NCBI GenBank assembly: GCA_017399555.1
Contig: JAFQBW010000063.1
Coordinates: 1-64,000 of the forward strand
Direction of reading: 5' to 3'
Length of the DNA: 64,000 nucleotides
Origin: Methanocorpusculum sp.
GTDB taxonomy: Archaea > Halobacteriota > Methanomicrobia > Methanomicrobiales > Methanocorpusculaceae
Shown: positions 3,782 through 6,856 of the stretch, piece after piece
How the letters are laid out: the number at the start of each line of letters is the position of its first letter
How positions within the stretch are numbered: the stretch's first letter is position 1
Program-made: the position numbers and the translations under genes
Notes under the pieces: generated by a model
What the model was told of the DNA's origin: nothing
What the model saw: only the letters and a program-made list of their open reading frames with translations
Databases searched by the model: none

Positions 3782-4445
3782 ACTGGAAGGGCTTGCCGAG
3801 CCGGAGTATCAGAAGTTTTCCGCATCCCTGCTTCTGGGTGTGGAAAACATCTTAGGCGTCAGAATCCCGAAACTCCGCGTAATTGCCAAGCGGATTGCCA
3901 AAGAGAACTGGAAGGAGTTTTTAGAGGATGCAAAGGATGACTCCTTTGAAGAGATTCTGCTCCAGGGACTCGTTATCGGCTACGCAAAAGCAAACCCGAC
4001 CGAGATTATCACCGCTCTTGACGCATTCCTGCCGAAGATTGACAACTGGTCGGTCTGCGACAGCACGGCGATGACCTTAAAGGCGGCAAAAGACCACCCG
4101 GCATACTTCGGCTATGCGCAGTCCTGCATCGCCGAGGGGACGGAGTTTTCCGTCCGCTTCGGACTTGTTCTGCTGATGTCGCATTTCGTATCAGACGAGT
4201 ACATCGAGTCGGTCCTCGAAACCATCGAAAACGCCAAACTTCCCGGCTACTATGCAAAAATGGCCGCCGCCTGGGCAGTATCTGTCTGCTATGTAAAATA
4301 CCCGGAAAGAACCGAGGAGTGGCTTTCCTCGGCAAAGCTGGATGACTGGACGTTTAACAAATCCATCCAGAAGATAAAAGAGTCCCTGCGGGTCTCCGAA
4401 GAGGACAAAAAGCGGCTTGAGGGAATGAAAAGGAAAGATGATTGA
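3765..4445 (+). CDS. DNA alkylation repair family protein (AlkD-like HEAT-repeat)
   Basis: This 226-residue all-helical protein resembles the AlkD/COG4912 family of HEAT-like glycosylases that remove alkylated bases. Recognisable stretches are GVRIPKLRVIAKRI near residue 31 and LDAFLPKIDNWSVCDS. The conserved KSIQKIKESLRV stretch is near the C-terminus. I start at the ATG at 3765, inside the end of the preceding flavoprotein gene, preceded by GAGGAT. Substrate range cannot be read from sequence. Confidence 0.85.
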   Translation: MNVKSELEGLAEPEYQKFSASLLLGVENILGVRIPKLRVIAKRIAKENWKEFLEDAKDDSFEEILLQGLVIGYAKANPTEIITALDAFLPKIDNWSVCDSTAMTLKAAKDHPAYFGYAQSCIAEGTEFSVRFGLVLLMSHFVSDEYIESVLETIENAKLPGYYAKMAAAWAVSVCYVKYPERTEEWLSSAKLDDWTFNKSIQKIKESLRVSEEDKKRLEGMKRKDD

Positions 4446-4495
4446 AGAATCTGGTCAATCTATTCATATGCTGATAGAGAAAAGTATCTTTTAGG

Positions 4496-4510
4496 CAATG
4501 GTTAACATTG
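4496..4510. promoter_or_regulatory. Possible operator palindrome upstream of the protease gene
   Basis: CAATG-GTTAA-CATTG is a dyad centred about 36 nt upstream of the protease ATG. It could be bound by a regulator such as the winged-helix protein encoded downstream, but this is only a positional guess. Confidence 0.25.
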
Positions 4511-4538
4511 TCAAAAACCTTCAACGGAGGTAAAGCAT

Positions 4539-5684
4539 ATGAAATTACAGACATACAAAAGAAAAACTGCATACATAGTCTGCTTTTTCCTTATCCTGCT
4601 TGGATGTTTTGCAGGAGCTGTTTCTGCTGATGATTCTGAGAAACAGTTCAAACTCAGTACTGATGATATCGTGCGCGGATTATATAATCCGGATAACGAA
4701 CAGCTTAGGTCTACCGATTCTGAGATTGTAAAACTGAAAGAGAAGAGTGTTTATTCTCGTGATGGTTTATCATCTCTCACATTAAACGAGAATCTACAGA
4801 AATTGGCTCTGGTTTACAATGATGAAAATGTTTCCAGTTACTTCTCTAAATTGATGAAAGAAGGGATTGTAACTGGATTTGGAGTAAACAGACTTGGGTA
4901 TTACAAAGTATGGGTGAAGAGCTCAGTGGATGATGATGAAATCTCTTCACTGATAAGTGGCTTTGACAAAATTACATATGATACATATGGTAAACTCCCA
5001 ATTATTATTCAGGTTTCTGATGGGATTTCCCTTCAATCAGAACATGTTGAGATAAGCCCATTTGCAACTAAACTCGAAAATTGGAGGCCAATTATTGGTG
5101 GAATTAGAGTTCAAGCAGTCACAAATACTGGTGTTTGGAATGGAACTATTGGATTTGCGGCAACTAAAAATGGACAAAGTGGGTATGTTACTCATGGACA
5201 TAATCTTGCAGTAGGTTCACAAATGTATCAACCGTACGCTTCACCGTTATATCCTGCTGGAACTGTACAAGCAATCGGTTCAACAAATTCTGATTCATCA
5301 TGGGTTCCTTTTGGAAACACCGAAGCTTCAATCTATAGTTCAGGATCAACAGGTAATAAGCGGGCTGTATCTGCATATTCGTCTATTCCAGATGGTTCAA
5401 AAGTAGTAGTTATGGCTGGTTCAAATACATACTCTTACGGGTATGTAGATGATGTAATCACGGCCAGTCATCCATATTATGGTGAAATTCCTTATCAATG
5501 GACTGCAACATATGATAGTATTGAAGGAGACAGCGGCGCTCCTGTTTATCAACAGGACTCAGTTACACATGAATTTTGTCTTGTTGGACTCCATTGGGGT
5601 CGAAAAGTCAGTTCAGATGTGGCTGTATTTTCACCATTAAGCGGAGTTATGTCTGATTTGGGTATTGTTCCAAAAACACGCTGA
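4539..5684 (+). CDS. Secreted chymotrypsin-fold serine protease
   Basis: This 381-residue protein has an N-terminal signal peptide (residues 1-30, ending near SADDSE), a pro-region of about 150 residues, and a C-terminal trypsin-like domain. All three catalytic residues are visible: His221 in GYVTHGHN, Asp252 in SDSSWVPF and Ser332 in EGDSGAPV. The arrangement of signal, propeptide and protease resembles alpha-lytic-type secreted proteases. The start has a strong site ACGGAGG at 4524-4530. Base composition is much more AT-rich than the neighbouring genes, suggesting recent acquisition. Substrate unknown; the adjacent membrane-bound regulator is a candidate partner. Confidence 0.85.
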   Translation: MKLQTYKRKTAYIVCFFLILLGCFAGAVSADDSEKQFKLSTDDIVRGLYNPDNEQLRSTDSEIVKLKEKSVYSRDGLSSLTLNENLQKLALVYNDENVSSYFSKLMKEGIVTGFGVNRLGYYKVWVKSSVDDDEISSLISGFDKITYDTYGKLPIIIQVSDGISLQSEHVEISPFATKLENWRPIIGGIRVQAVTNTGVWNGTIGFAATKNGQSGYVTHGHNLAVGSQMYQPYASPLYPAGTVQAIGSTNSDSSWVPFGNTEASIYSSGSTGNKRAVSAYSSIPDGSKVVVMAGSNTYSYGYVDDVITASHPYYGEIPYQWTATYDSIEGDSGAPVYQQDSVTHEFCLVGLHWGRKVSSDVAVFSPLSGVMSDLGIVPKTR

Positions 5685-5715
5685 TTGTATCAATCCAAAT
5701 TTCAAAACGTGGCCA

Positions 5716-5750
5716 ATGAGTATTTATACTCATAACTCGTTTTTTTTTTT
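5716..5750 (+). terminator. Hairpin plus T-tract after the protease gene
   Basis: ATGAGTA and TACTCAT form a 7-bp stem (5716-5733) followed closely by an 11-base T run at 5740-5750. This is a typical termination signal between the protease and the regulator gene. The TATTTATA inside the loop could alternatively serve as the regulator's TATA box. Confidence 0.55.
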
Positions 5751-5780
5751 CTATAATCTTGTGAGTGGTGATGGACAGTG

Positions 5781-6596
5781 ATGGTTAAACACTTAACGGT
5801 TATATTGTCGTTACTCATTATGTCAATACTGTTATGGAATCCTGTATGTGGTATGGATATGGCTCCATATATTCCAGATACTAAGGTAGATTCTCATCCT
5901 GTCATTCAGAAATTCATTGTAAGTCCGGACAGTCTTATGTGGATAGTAAGACCTGTATATCTTGGGTATCTTCCATCCATGCCTGAAACAGCAGAAGATT
6001 TTATCCGCTATACACTATATCCATATGCTCTACTCCTTCTTACAATCCTTTCAGTATCAGGTTTTATCTTATTCAGCCGCAGAAATAATCCGGAAGAAAA
6101 ATTAGATTCAGCGCCGGCAAAGATTCTCTCATATCTGAATCATTATCCTCCAGCATCTCTGAGTAAACTCGTTAGAGAACTTGATATCTCTCGCGGCTCT
6201 GTAAGATATCAGATTCACCGTCTAAGTCGTGAGGGTAAAATATTTTCACAAGAGATTGGGGGCAGAACATTTTATTCTGCATCACCTGTTACAACGGACG
6301 AAAAAGTACAATCTTTCATACAAGTATTCGATGATGAAATAGATTGGAAAATTTGTGGTGTTCTTTTTGAAGTTGAGGAACTGTCACGGCAGAATATTGC
6401 AGAAAAAACAAAGTTGTCTCCTGATACTGTGTACTATCACCTAAGCCATATGGGGGAGGAAGTTGTACGAAAAAGAACTGAGAGCGGGACTGTATTCTAT
6501 CAGTTAAGTGATGAGATGCGGGAATGGAGTGAGAAGTATTATCTCTTAGATTTGATAAATTCAGTAAATTCTTCTCCTGTTCAAAATCCATCTTGA
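5781..6596 (+). CDS. Membrane-anchored tandem winged-helix transcriptional regulator
   Basis: This 271-residue protein has a signal-like hydrophobic N-terminus (1-24) and an outside segment of about 60 residues. A transmembrane helix near residues 84-107 (YALLLLTILSVSGFILF) is followed by a cytoplasmic part with two winged-helix domains. The first domain contains SLSKLVRELDISRGSVRYQI and the second NIAEKTKLSPDTVYYHL, both ArsR/MarR-like. A GTG at 5778 is possible but the ATG at 5781 has GGTGAT 8 nt upstream. Like the protease gene before it, it is AT-rich. It probably senses an envelope signal and binds DNA; no target is known. Confidence 0.8.
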   Translation: MVKHLTVILSLLIMSILLWNPVCGMDMAPYIPDTKVDSHPVIQKFIVSPDSLMWIVRPVYLGYLPSMPETAEDFIRYTLYPYALLLLTILSVSGFILFSRRNNPEEKLDSAPAKILSYLNHYPPASLSKLVRELDISRGSVRYQIHRLSREGKIFSQEIGGRTFYSASPVTTDEKVQSFIQVFDDEIDWKICGVLFEVEELSRQNIAEKTKLSPDTVYYHLSHMGEEVVRKRTESGTVFYQLSDEMREWSEKYYLLDLINSVNSSPVQNPS

Positions 6597-6838
6597 AACA
6601 CGAATCCACGCGAATCAACACTAATCGCACGTTCTTAACGGCGCGTAATCGGCTTATCGCCTACGCGCCTAAACGTGCTTGCGCCCTCGCAGTTGGCTCG
6701 GGCGGAAAGATTCGAGATTCAACATTACGCCCGAGCCGACTGCGAGGGCGCAAGCGTGCCTCGGCTCACCGCTATAAGCGGTGAAATGAGCCGTGAATAG
6801 GCACGCGATTCGTGTTGATTAGTGTGGATTCGTGTTTC
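6595..6838. repeat. Long nested inverted repeat, element B (GATT module outside, GC-rich stem inside)
   Basis: The outer arms 6595-6628 and 6805-6838 match over 34 bp with three mismatches. The right arm is three decamers in a row: GATTCGTGTT, GATTAGTGTG, GATTCGTGTT. The inner arms 6678-6704 and 6728-6754 match at 26 of 27 positions (CGCCCGAGCC-ACTGCGAGGG) around a 23-nt loop. The layout is the same as element A. The left arm begins inside the stop codon of the regulator gene, and the right arm ends 18 nt before the uppS stop. It therefore fills the whole space between two convergent genes and may also terminate both. Confidence 0.9.
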
Positions 6839-6856
6839 TCGAATAAAATAGAATAA

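Follow-up and report, generated by a model that had tools for sequence, protein, structure and literature searches.

A secreted S1-type serine protease recurrently encoded beside membrane-anchored winged-helix regulators in Methanocorpusculum and its order: a candidate outside-in sensing module

Two neighbouring AT-rich genes of the archaeon Methanocorpusculum sp. raise the question of whether a secreted serine protease and a transcription factor tethered to the membrane form a functional pair through which the cell reads its exterior. The genes lie in a stretch of 64,000 nucleotides (contig JAFQBW010000063.1 of assembly GCA_017399555.1, G000:C58 in our set; hereafter the window) from a genome of 2.02 Mb in 67 contigs. 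The first-pass annotation of this stretch had proposed a protease that either cleaves the regulator encoded next to it or is sensed by that regulator. The features on which the argument draws are the following, with the strand given for coding features:

4446–6856: inserted island, GC 0.39, delimited by GC and by flanking genes that abut elsewhere
4496–4510: weak dyad CAATG-N5-CATTG with 5-nt arms, upstream of the protease and weak alone
4539–5684, plus strand: secreted S1-family serine protease, 381 aa, by profile match and fold match
4539–4631, plus strand: signal peptide, about residues 1–31, by hydropathy
4773–5018, plus strand: N-terminal (pro-type) domain, residues 79–160, by structure model and free homologues in relatives
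5082–5681, plus strand: chymotrypsin-fold catalytic domain, residues 182–381, by alignment, profile and fold match
5199–5201, 5292–5294 and 5532–5534, plus strand: catalytic residues H221, D252 and S332, by 6-row alignment
5710–5731: 22-nt block unchanged in the related species G018 amid otherwise diverged intergenic DNA
5781–6596 (start 5778/5781), plus strand: membrane-anchored double winged-helix regulator, REG, 271 aa, by ORF and Pfam
5853–6008, plus strand: predicted outside segment of REG, residues 25–76, by hydropathy
6009–6074, plus strand: transmembrane helix of REG, about residues 77–98, by hydropathy
6111–6290, plus strand: winged helix 1, by Pfam HTH_20 / HTH_HVO_0163_N within residues 111–174
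6315–6518, plus strand: winged helix 2, best stretch of NF033788, residues 179–246
6595–6838: palindromic repeat element at the right edge of the island, with 34-nt outer arms (6595–6628 and 6805–6838) that are 91% complementary

The two genes had been picked out as low-GC neighbours on one strand, and this description holds, since both open reading frames occupy the plus strand with a GC content of 0.386 (protease) and 0.379 (regulator) against 0.520 for the whole window. In sliding windows of 2,058 nt, the minimum GC (0.380) falls at position 4401 and the lowest non-overlapping value is 0.476 (mean 0.519, sd 0.031), and the GC3 values of the protease (0.25) and the regulator (0.29) are the lowest two among 62 ORFs of at least 150 aa, the next being 0.435. 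The island of about 2.4 kb is located between two convergent housekeeping genes, identified by Pfam as a DNA_alkylation gene ending at 4445 and an undecaprenyl-diphosphate synthase gene ending at about 6857, and contains only these two plus-strand genes together with one other listed ORF of at least 80 aa, antisense to REG. The DNA_alkylation gene, present in 16 of 25 genomes of the genus (15 besides the window), served to locate the site. Both flanking genes abut in 11 of these 15 other loci, and G018 is the sole carrier of the island among them; the locus in G023 ends 243 nt downstream, with island sequence absent at the expected position, G008 has a different neighbour beside the DNA_alkylation gene, and in G002 the second flank was not displayed by ORF picking. 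The most similar flanking gene is that of G023 (L198 1–330), followed by about 26 nt shared with the left edge of the island and then by other repeat-like DNA up to the end of the contig. The palindromic element also has inner arms of 31 nt and one further near-full copy in the genome (G000:C60:7707–7952). No integrase or transposase occurs among the ORFs listed within 4446–6856, so the island does not qualify as a self-mobile element. Relatives sought in collections of viral contigs, plasmids and phages were not found there, and a phage or plasmid source is thus unsupported in those collections. The island is an insertion carrying two genes.

The full catalytic triad ascribed to the protease on first inspection is confirmed by the alignment with relatives, in which H221, D252 and S332 are unchanged in all six rows; the triad comes with the motif GDSG. 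Searched singly, the sequence reached no peptidase model of Pfam or NCBIfam. A profile of the six-row family compared with PDB chains retrieved the alpha-lytic-type 5mrr_A (E 1.2e-10) and streptogrisin B (2.1e-6). Folded alone, the protein gave a model that was discarded (pLDDT 36), and the AlphaFold model built from the family alignment (pLDDT 65, pTM 0.65) was used instead. This model matches the alpha-lytic group with Z about 20 over some 177–183 residues, as with 5mrt_B (Z 20.5, 183 residues, rmsd 2.6). By predicted fold, triad and sequence, the protein would thus be a member of peptidase family S1 of the alpha-lytic/streptogrisin-like kind. It shares with that group the chymotrypsin fold, the triad and secretion, but differs in its low identity (about 22%), in its link to a membrane regulator and in an N-terminal domain, a putative propeptide modelled as helix-helix-strand-strand-helix-strand, that is unmatched to bacterial pro regions; the fold-match list contained no bacterial alpha-lytic pro region, which excludes nothing. 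Residues 80–381 of the model, N-terminal domain included, also align with rice NAL1 (8pmi_B; Z 20.3, 270 residues, rmsd 3.9), but this is a plant protein of 14% identity, absent from the sequence-profile matches, and TM-scores for the two-domain comparison are about 0.5 or lower; the modelled likeness would be one of fold only. The closest full-length relative of the protease is found in a contig of Methanocorpusculum sp. RGIG2143 from goat colon (G018:C9), the only other one of the 25 genomes of the genus in which a close full-length relative (67% identity) was found. Trypsin-like proteins are described as few in archaea in the excerpted text of a survey of prokaryotic serine proteases (PMC2605481), and a term search of the Methanocorpusculum genus paper (PMC10035134) returned neither "protease" nor "peptidase".

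The second gene had been read as a regulator with an outside segment of about 60 residues, one transmembrane helix and two DNA-binding domains. Hydropathy and helix-turn-helix models above their cut-offs, exceeded by both winged-helix stretches in Pfam, bear out the helix and the two domains. The outside segment is likewise present, but it measures about 52 residues by hydropathy, slightly shorter than claimed; hydrophobic segments were called by hydropathy only, one from residue 1 and the second from about residue 77–80. As predicted from its sequence, REG combines a DNA-binding domain and a transmembrane region in one protein and would be a transmembrane transcription regulator (TTR). Its PADLOC matches are confined to the winged-helix parts. 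The genome also encodes an intramembrane M50 protease (PF02163 above cut-off), which is not specific to it, as 14 of 14 control genomes match too.

Both dyads reported for the DNA upstream of the two genes lie exactly where they had been placed, with arms of 5 nt (4496–4510) and 8 nt (5716–5733, ATGAGTATTTATACTCAT). The first sits in an upstream stretch of 106 nt, 105 positions of which are identical in G018, and the second overlaps the 22-nt identical block, which also overlaps a TATA-like TTTATA.

Evidence for a link between the two genes comes from their neighbourhood in other genomes, where the conserved adjacency suggested as a check was indeed recovered. The protease family profile has matches in 45 of the 232 genomes of the order, and the 24 loci that show a catalytic domain, whether intact or broken, were all examined with their flanks. 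In 20 of them a winged-helix gene with a membrane anchor is no more than 1.2 kb from the protease, against about 1.4% expected per locus from the local background: the density of such regulators is 0.39 per kb inside 1.2 kb and 0.0043 per kb, about 90-fold sparser, across 231 kb of the same regions. These 20 linked loci share ancestry and are, therefore, not 20 independent events. Two unlike, non-orthologous regulator architectures are nonetheless involved, and the adjacency persists across different flanking genes. The REG type adjoins the protease in the window, G018 and G007, and a small secreted gene separates the two in G017, so that in four of the four same-genus genomes with the protease it is adjacent or one small secreted gene away; in G068 and G160 it lies in divergent orientation behind a small secreted gene, and in G051 it stands at 939 nt. 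A short wHTH+2TM type accounts for 13 further protease loci (beside the protease in G058, G053, G043, the second locus of G052, G176, G138, G128, G120, G159, G164 and G166, and at 473 nt in G104 and G101). The remaining four loci showed no regulator inside the 1.2 kb (the first of G052, G186, G211, which is at a contig end, and G192). The protease of G007 has its catalytic His replaced by Gln and has lost part of its C-terminus, beside an intact regulator (L057 5321–6379), and the protease frame is broken in G043 and G053, which were counted because catalytic fragments follow in other frames. Some of these three cases among the 24 are possibly due to assembly error; taken as they stand, they indicate that a pair can do without a functional protease. 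The pairing is, thus, not peculiar to the archaeon of the window, and functional coupling of protease and membrane regulator is supported by this comparison of gene neighbourhoods. A role in envelope stress is unsupported.

What normally accompanies the regulator can be seen from its relatives. REG-type genes are found at E ≤1e-15 in 21 of the 33 genomes of the family, with up to 13 per genome, and those elsewhere in the genome of the window are also fairly AT-rich (GC 0.39–0.49). A listing of 59 REG-type ORFs, a few of them incomplete or duplicate, shows that, where the upstream sequence is long enough, many are preceded by a secreted gene of about 140–160 aa, which overlaps the regulator gene by 11 nt in a good part of the cases. 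At L062 4464–5685 and similar loci, for instance, a secreted protein of about 150 aa and a membrane double winged-helix regulator are encoded with the 11-nt overlap. One such partner has a weak PPC match (E 0.0042, below cut-off). The first-pass annotation had held that homologous regulators without a protease neighbour would speak against its proposal; many REG relatives do answer to that description, but in most of them, where the upstream sequence suffices, another secreted protein is encoded there. It follows that in the window, G018 and G007 the protease occupies the place of that partner, and that REG, whose relatives mostly have a small secreted protein upstream, looks like an archaeal "co-component" transmembrane regulator, the gene of an extracytoplasmic partner being adjacent in these three genomes as in many relatives. 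The likely general picture from these gene orders is one of an outside partner with a membrane regulator, the protease being one kind of partner.

The N-terminal domain also occurs apart from the protease, as a free gene product. A phylum-wide search matched 46 of 392 sampled genomes and yielded family f8, of which 20 of the listed loci were fetched (L173–L192). Some free copies in f8 carry a C-terminal membrane helix or, on one copy, HEAT repeats. A REG-type gene also lies within 3 kb in L179, L181 and L184, whereas the match in L176 was not called membrane-anchored by the hydropathy rule and was left out of this count. Among 23 standalone loci of the domain, four (G045, G050b, G115 and G102) were dropped for want of such an ORF by the local profile, and a membrane regulator lies within 3 kb in 7 of the remaining 19 (G075, G073, G184, G119, G051b, G067 and G038). 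In G052 (L054 4033–6932), the protease stands between two short membrane winged-helix genes, with a free N-terminal-domain gene completing a four-gene cluster. The 17 best matches of the wHTH+2TM type (at least 155 bits) are similarly placed: 16 flank a protease or a free N-terminal-domain gene, one of them at a contig edge and judged by eye, and the other is at a contig end, while none of 20 weaker paralogs adjoins either kind of gene. The outside loop after the first membrane helix contains P-[RK]-L in 15 of 18 linked rows (L128, the contig-end case, included; G075, G104 and G101 lack it) and in none of the 20 unlinked control paralogs, a link that is confounded with ancestry because the linked rows are mostly one clade.

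Several explanations can be weighed against this evidence. Quite possible, if on balance doubtful, is that the membrane protein is a local regulator only, sensing an unrelated outside or membrane cue and controlling expression of the neighbouring protease with no contact between the proteins. Seven wHTH+2TM genes diverge from the protease across a shared promoter region (G058, G053, G176, G138, G159, G164 and G166), the classic layout of regulator and target; several of these intergenic regions hold inverted repeats, and this regulator type has just a short outside loop. Such a role leaves unexplained, however, why free N-terminal-domain genes pair with wHTH+2TM regulators without a protease (G119, G184 and G038), and why the genes of secreted partners and REG-type regulators overlap in the wider family. 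Somewhat less probable is that protease-inhibitor logic comes first, the N-terminal domain being an inhibitor or folding helper, its free copies stand-alone inhibitors, and the regulator a means of tuning their balance. A free N-terminal-domain gene adjoins the protease in 20 of the 20 fetched f8 loci, which look like protease-inhibitor pairs from their gene content, and within the order the same arrangement recurs in G051, G068, G160, G186 and G211, but no free copy stands beside the pair of the window. This explanation may overlap with the sensing module discussed below.

It is improbable, in turn, that protease and regulator have nothing to do with each other and ride along in AT-rich islands that gather secreted proteins and regulators. 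An insertion of odd GC with a repeat element at its edge, and a protease whose close full-length relative is confined to one other same-genus genome, would suit such hitchhiking, but the scarcity of these regulators in the background of the same regions and an adjacency kept despite different flanking genes argue against it. Compared with these alternatives, an acquired sensing-and-response module, in which REG reads the protease outside the cell and controls the promoters of the module, is put forward tentatively, as a reading that comes close to an even chance. Against it speak the four protease loci in which no regulator was found close by, the broken proteases, the weakness of the upstream dyad at 4496–4510, and family f8, where a free N-terminal domain rather than a regulator is the constant neighbour of the protease; adjacency, moreover, does not amount to contact.

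Comparison of the pair with that of G018 bears on how such a module would have changed. At fourfold sites, with boundaries chosen after inspection, the arms (protease residues 1–100 and the winged helices) differ at 20 of 99 positions, the centre (protease 101–381 and REG 1–60) at 55 of 99 and the flanking genes at 210 of 384, and in a window-range permutation within the island 161 of 5000 runs attained the observed value. The arms are, thus, too similar, having been either recently exchanged or constrained. The centre diverges silently like the flanks (p 0.91), yet its protein sequence changes faster (dN 0.31 for the catalytic domain and 0.72 for the ectodomain, against 0.016–0.105 for flanking genes). 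An anciently diverged central cassette is not what the fourfold sites indicate, as the centre is no more diverged there than the flanks. Between the window and G018 the outside segment is diverged, but between G017 and G007 no part of REG is better conserved (84% identical, against 42% for winged helix 2), and the idea of a generally variable outside segment was rejected on this ground. Among 10 other protease pairs, three were left undivided, as no start motif of the catalytic domain was recognised in them; in L175/L180 the signal peptide is conserved and the remainder diverged, and the remaining pairs compared gave no clear contrast between conserved and variable parts.

In the sensing module, REG would act as a TTR whose short outside segment is joined by a single membrane helix to two winged helices within the cell. 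Its family is often paired with a small secreted partner encoded upstream, in the logic of ToxR/ToxS, and the alpha-lytic-type protease would fill that place here. The protease, or its N-terminal domain, may engage the outside segment of REG, by binding or by a site-1-like cut, through which REG would read whether the protease is present or active outside the cell and control the promoters of the module, probably via the dyad over the TATA-like element at 5710–5733. The topology, the physical contact, the direction of the signal and the autoregulation are parts of this scheme that we infer, and an outside-in module of the co-component type with the protease as partner is the reading that we favour. 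In regulated intramembrane proteolysis of the SREBP or sigma-E type, an outside protease cuts a membrane-held transcription factor, which is then processed by an S2P-type protease. The present case resembles it in having a candidate outside protease, a membrane-held factor and an S2P-type protease in the genome, but differs in that the protease is encoded as the neighbour of the regulator.

Among described regulators, TTRs form a recognised class, in which Methanomicrobia are enriched, and some of them work with dedicated partner proteins in "cocomponent systems", as excerpted from PMC10269533. ToxR, TcpP and their partners (PMC10269533, same excerpt) likewise unite DNA-binding domain and membrane helix in one protein and involve a partner protein, although here a serine protease, or a secreted protein with a weak likeness to PPC, takes the part of the partner; a protease-TTR pairing in archaea is not described in that excerpt. 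ArnR and ArnR1 of Sulfolobus are archaeal membrane-bound one-component regulators according to excerpts of PMC6396743 and PMC13286277, with an N-terminal helix-turn-helix as in the wHTH+2TM relatives, whereas the membrane helix of REG comes before its two winged helices, a layout other than that of ArnR, and a protease partner is not named in the excerpt of PMC6396743. Parts of two further sources mention a membrane-bound regulator in archaeal pilus loci (PMC4858521) and the rarity in archaea of response regulators with DNA-binding domains (PMC5847659). A description of the pairing of protease and membrane winged-helix regulator was not found in the literature searched.

The recurrence of a protease with a membrane-bound DNA-binding neighbour suggests a little-studied way in which archaea sense the cell exterior. 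A bolder extension, which we regard as a long shot, is that methanogens possess a family of modules for extracellular sensing, with a secreted S1 protease, or the N-terminal domain in its free form, as dedicated ligand of a transcription factor tethered to the membrane, by which the cell would read proteolysis in its surroundings; in Methanocorpusculum, the rapidly evolving domain of the protease and the ectodomain of the receptor would then form a matched block between conserved arms, like the specificity groups of quorum sensing. Archaeal sensing beyond the membrane is poorly known, and the recurrent combination of a protease and a membrane-bound transcription factor is a concrete candidate for outside-in signalling. 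Part of the abundant methanomicrobial TTRs would thereby gain a partner, and a protease family that has no library name comes into view together with its free N-terminal domain.
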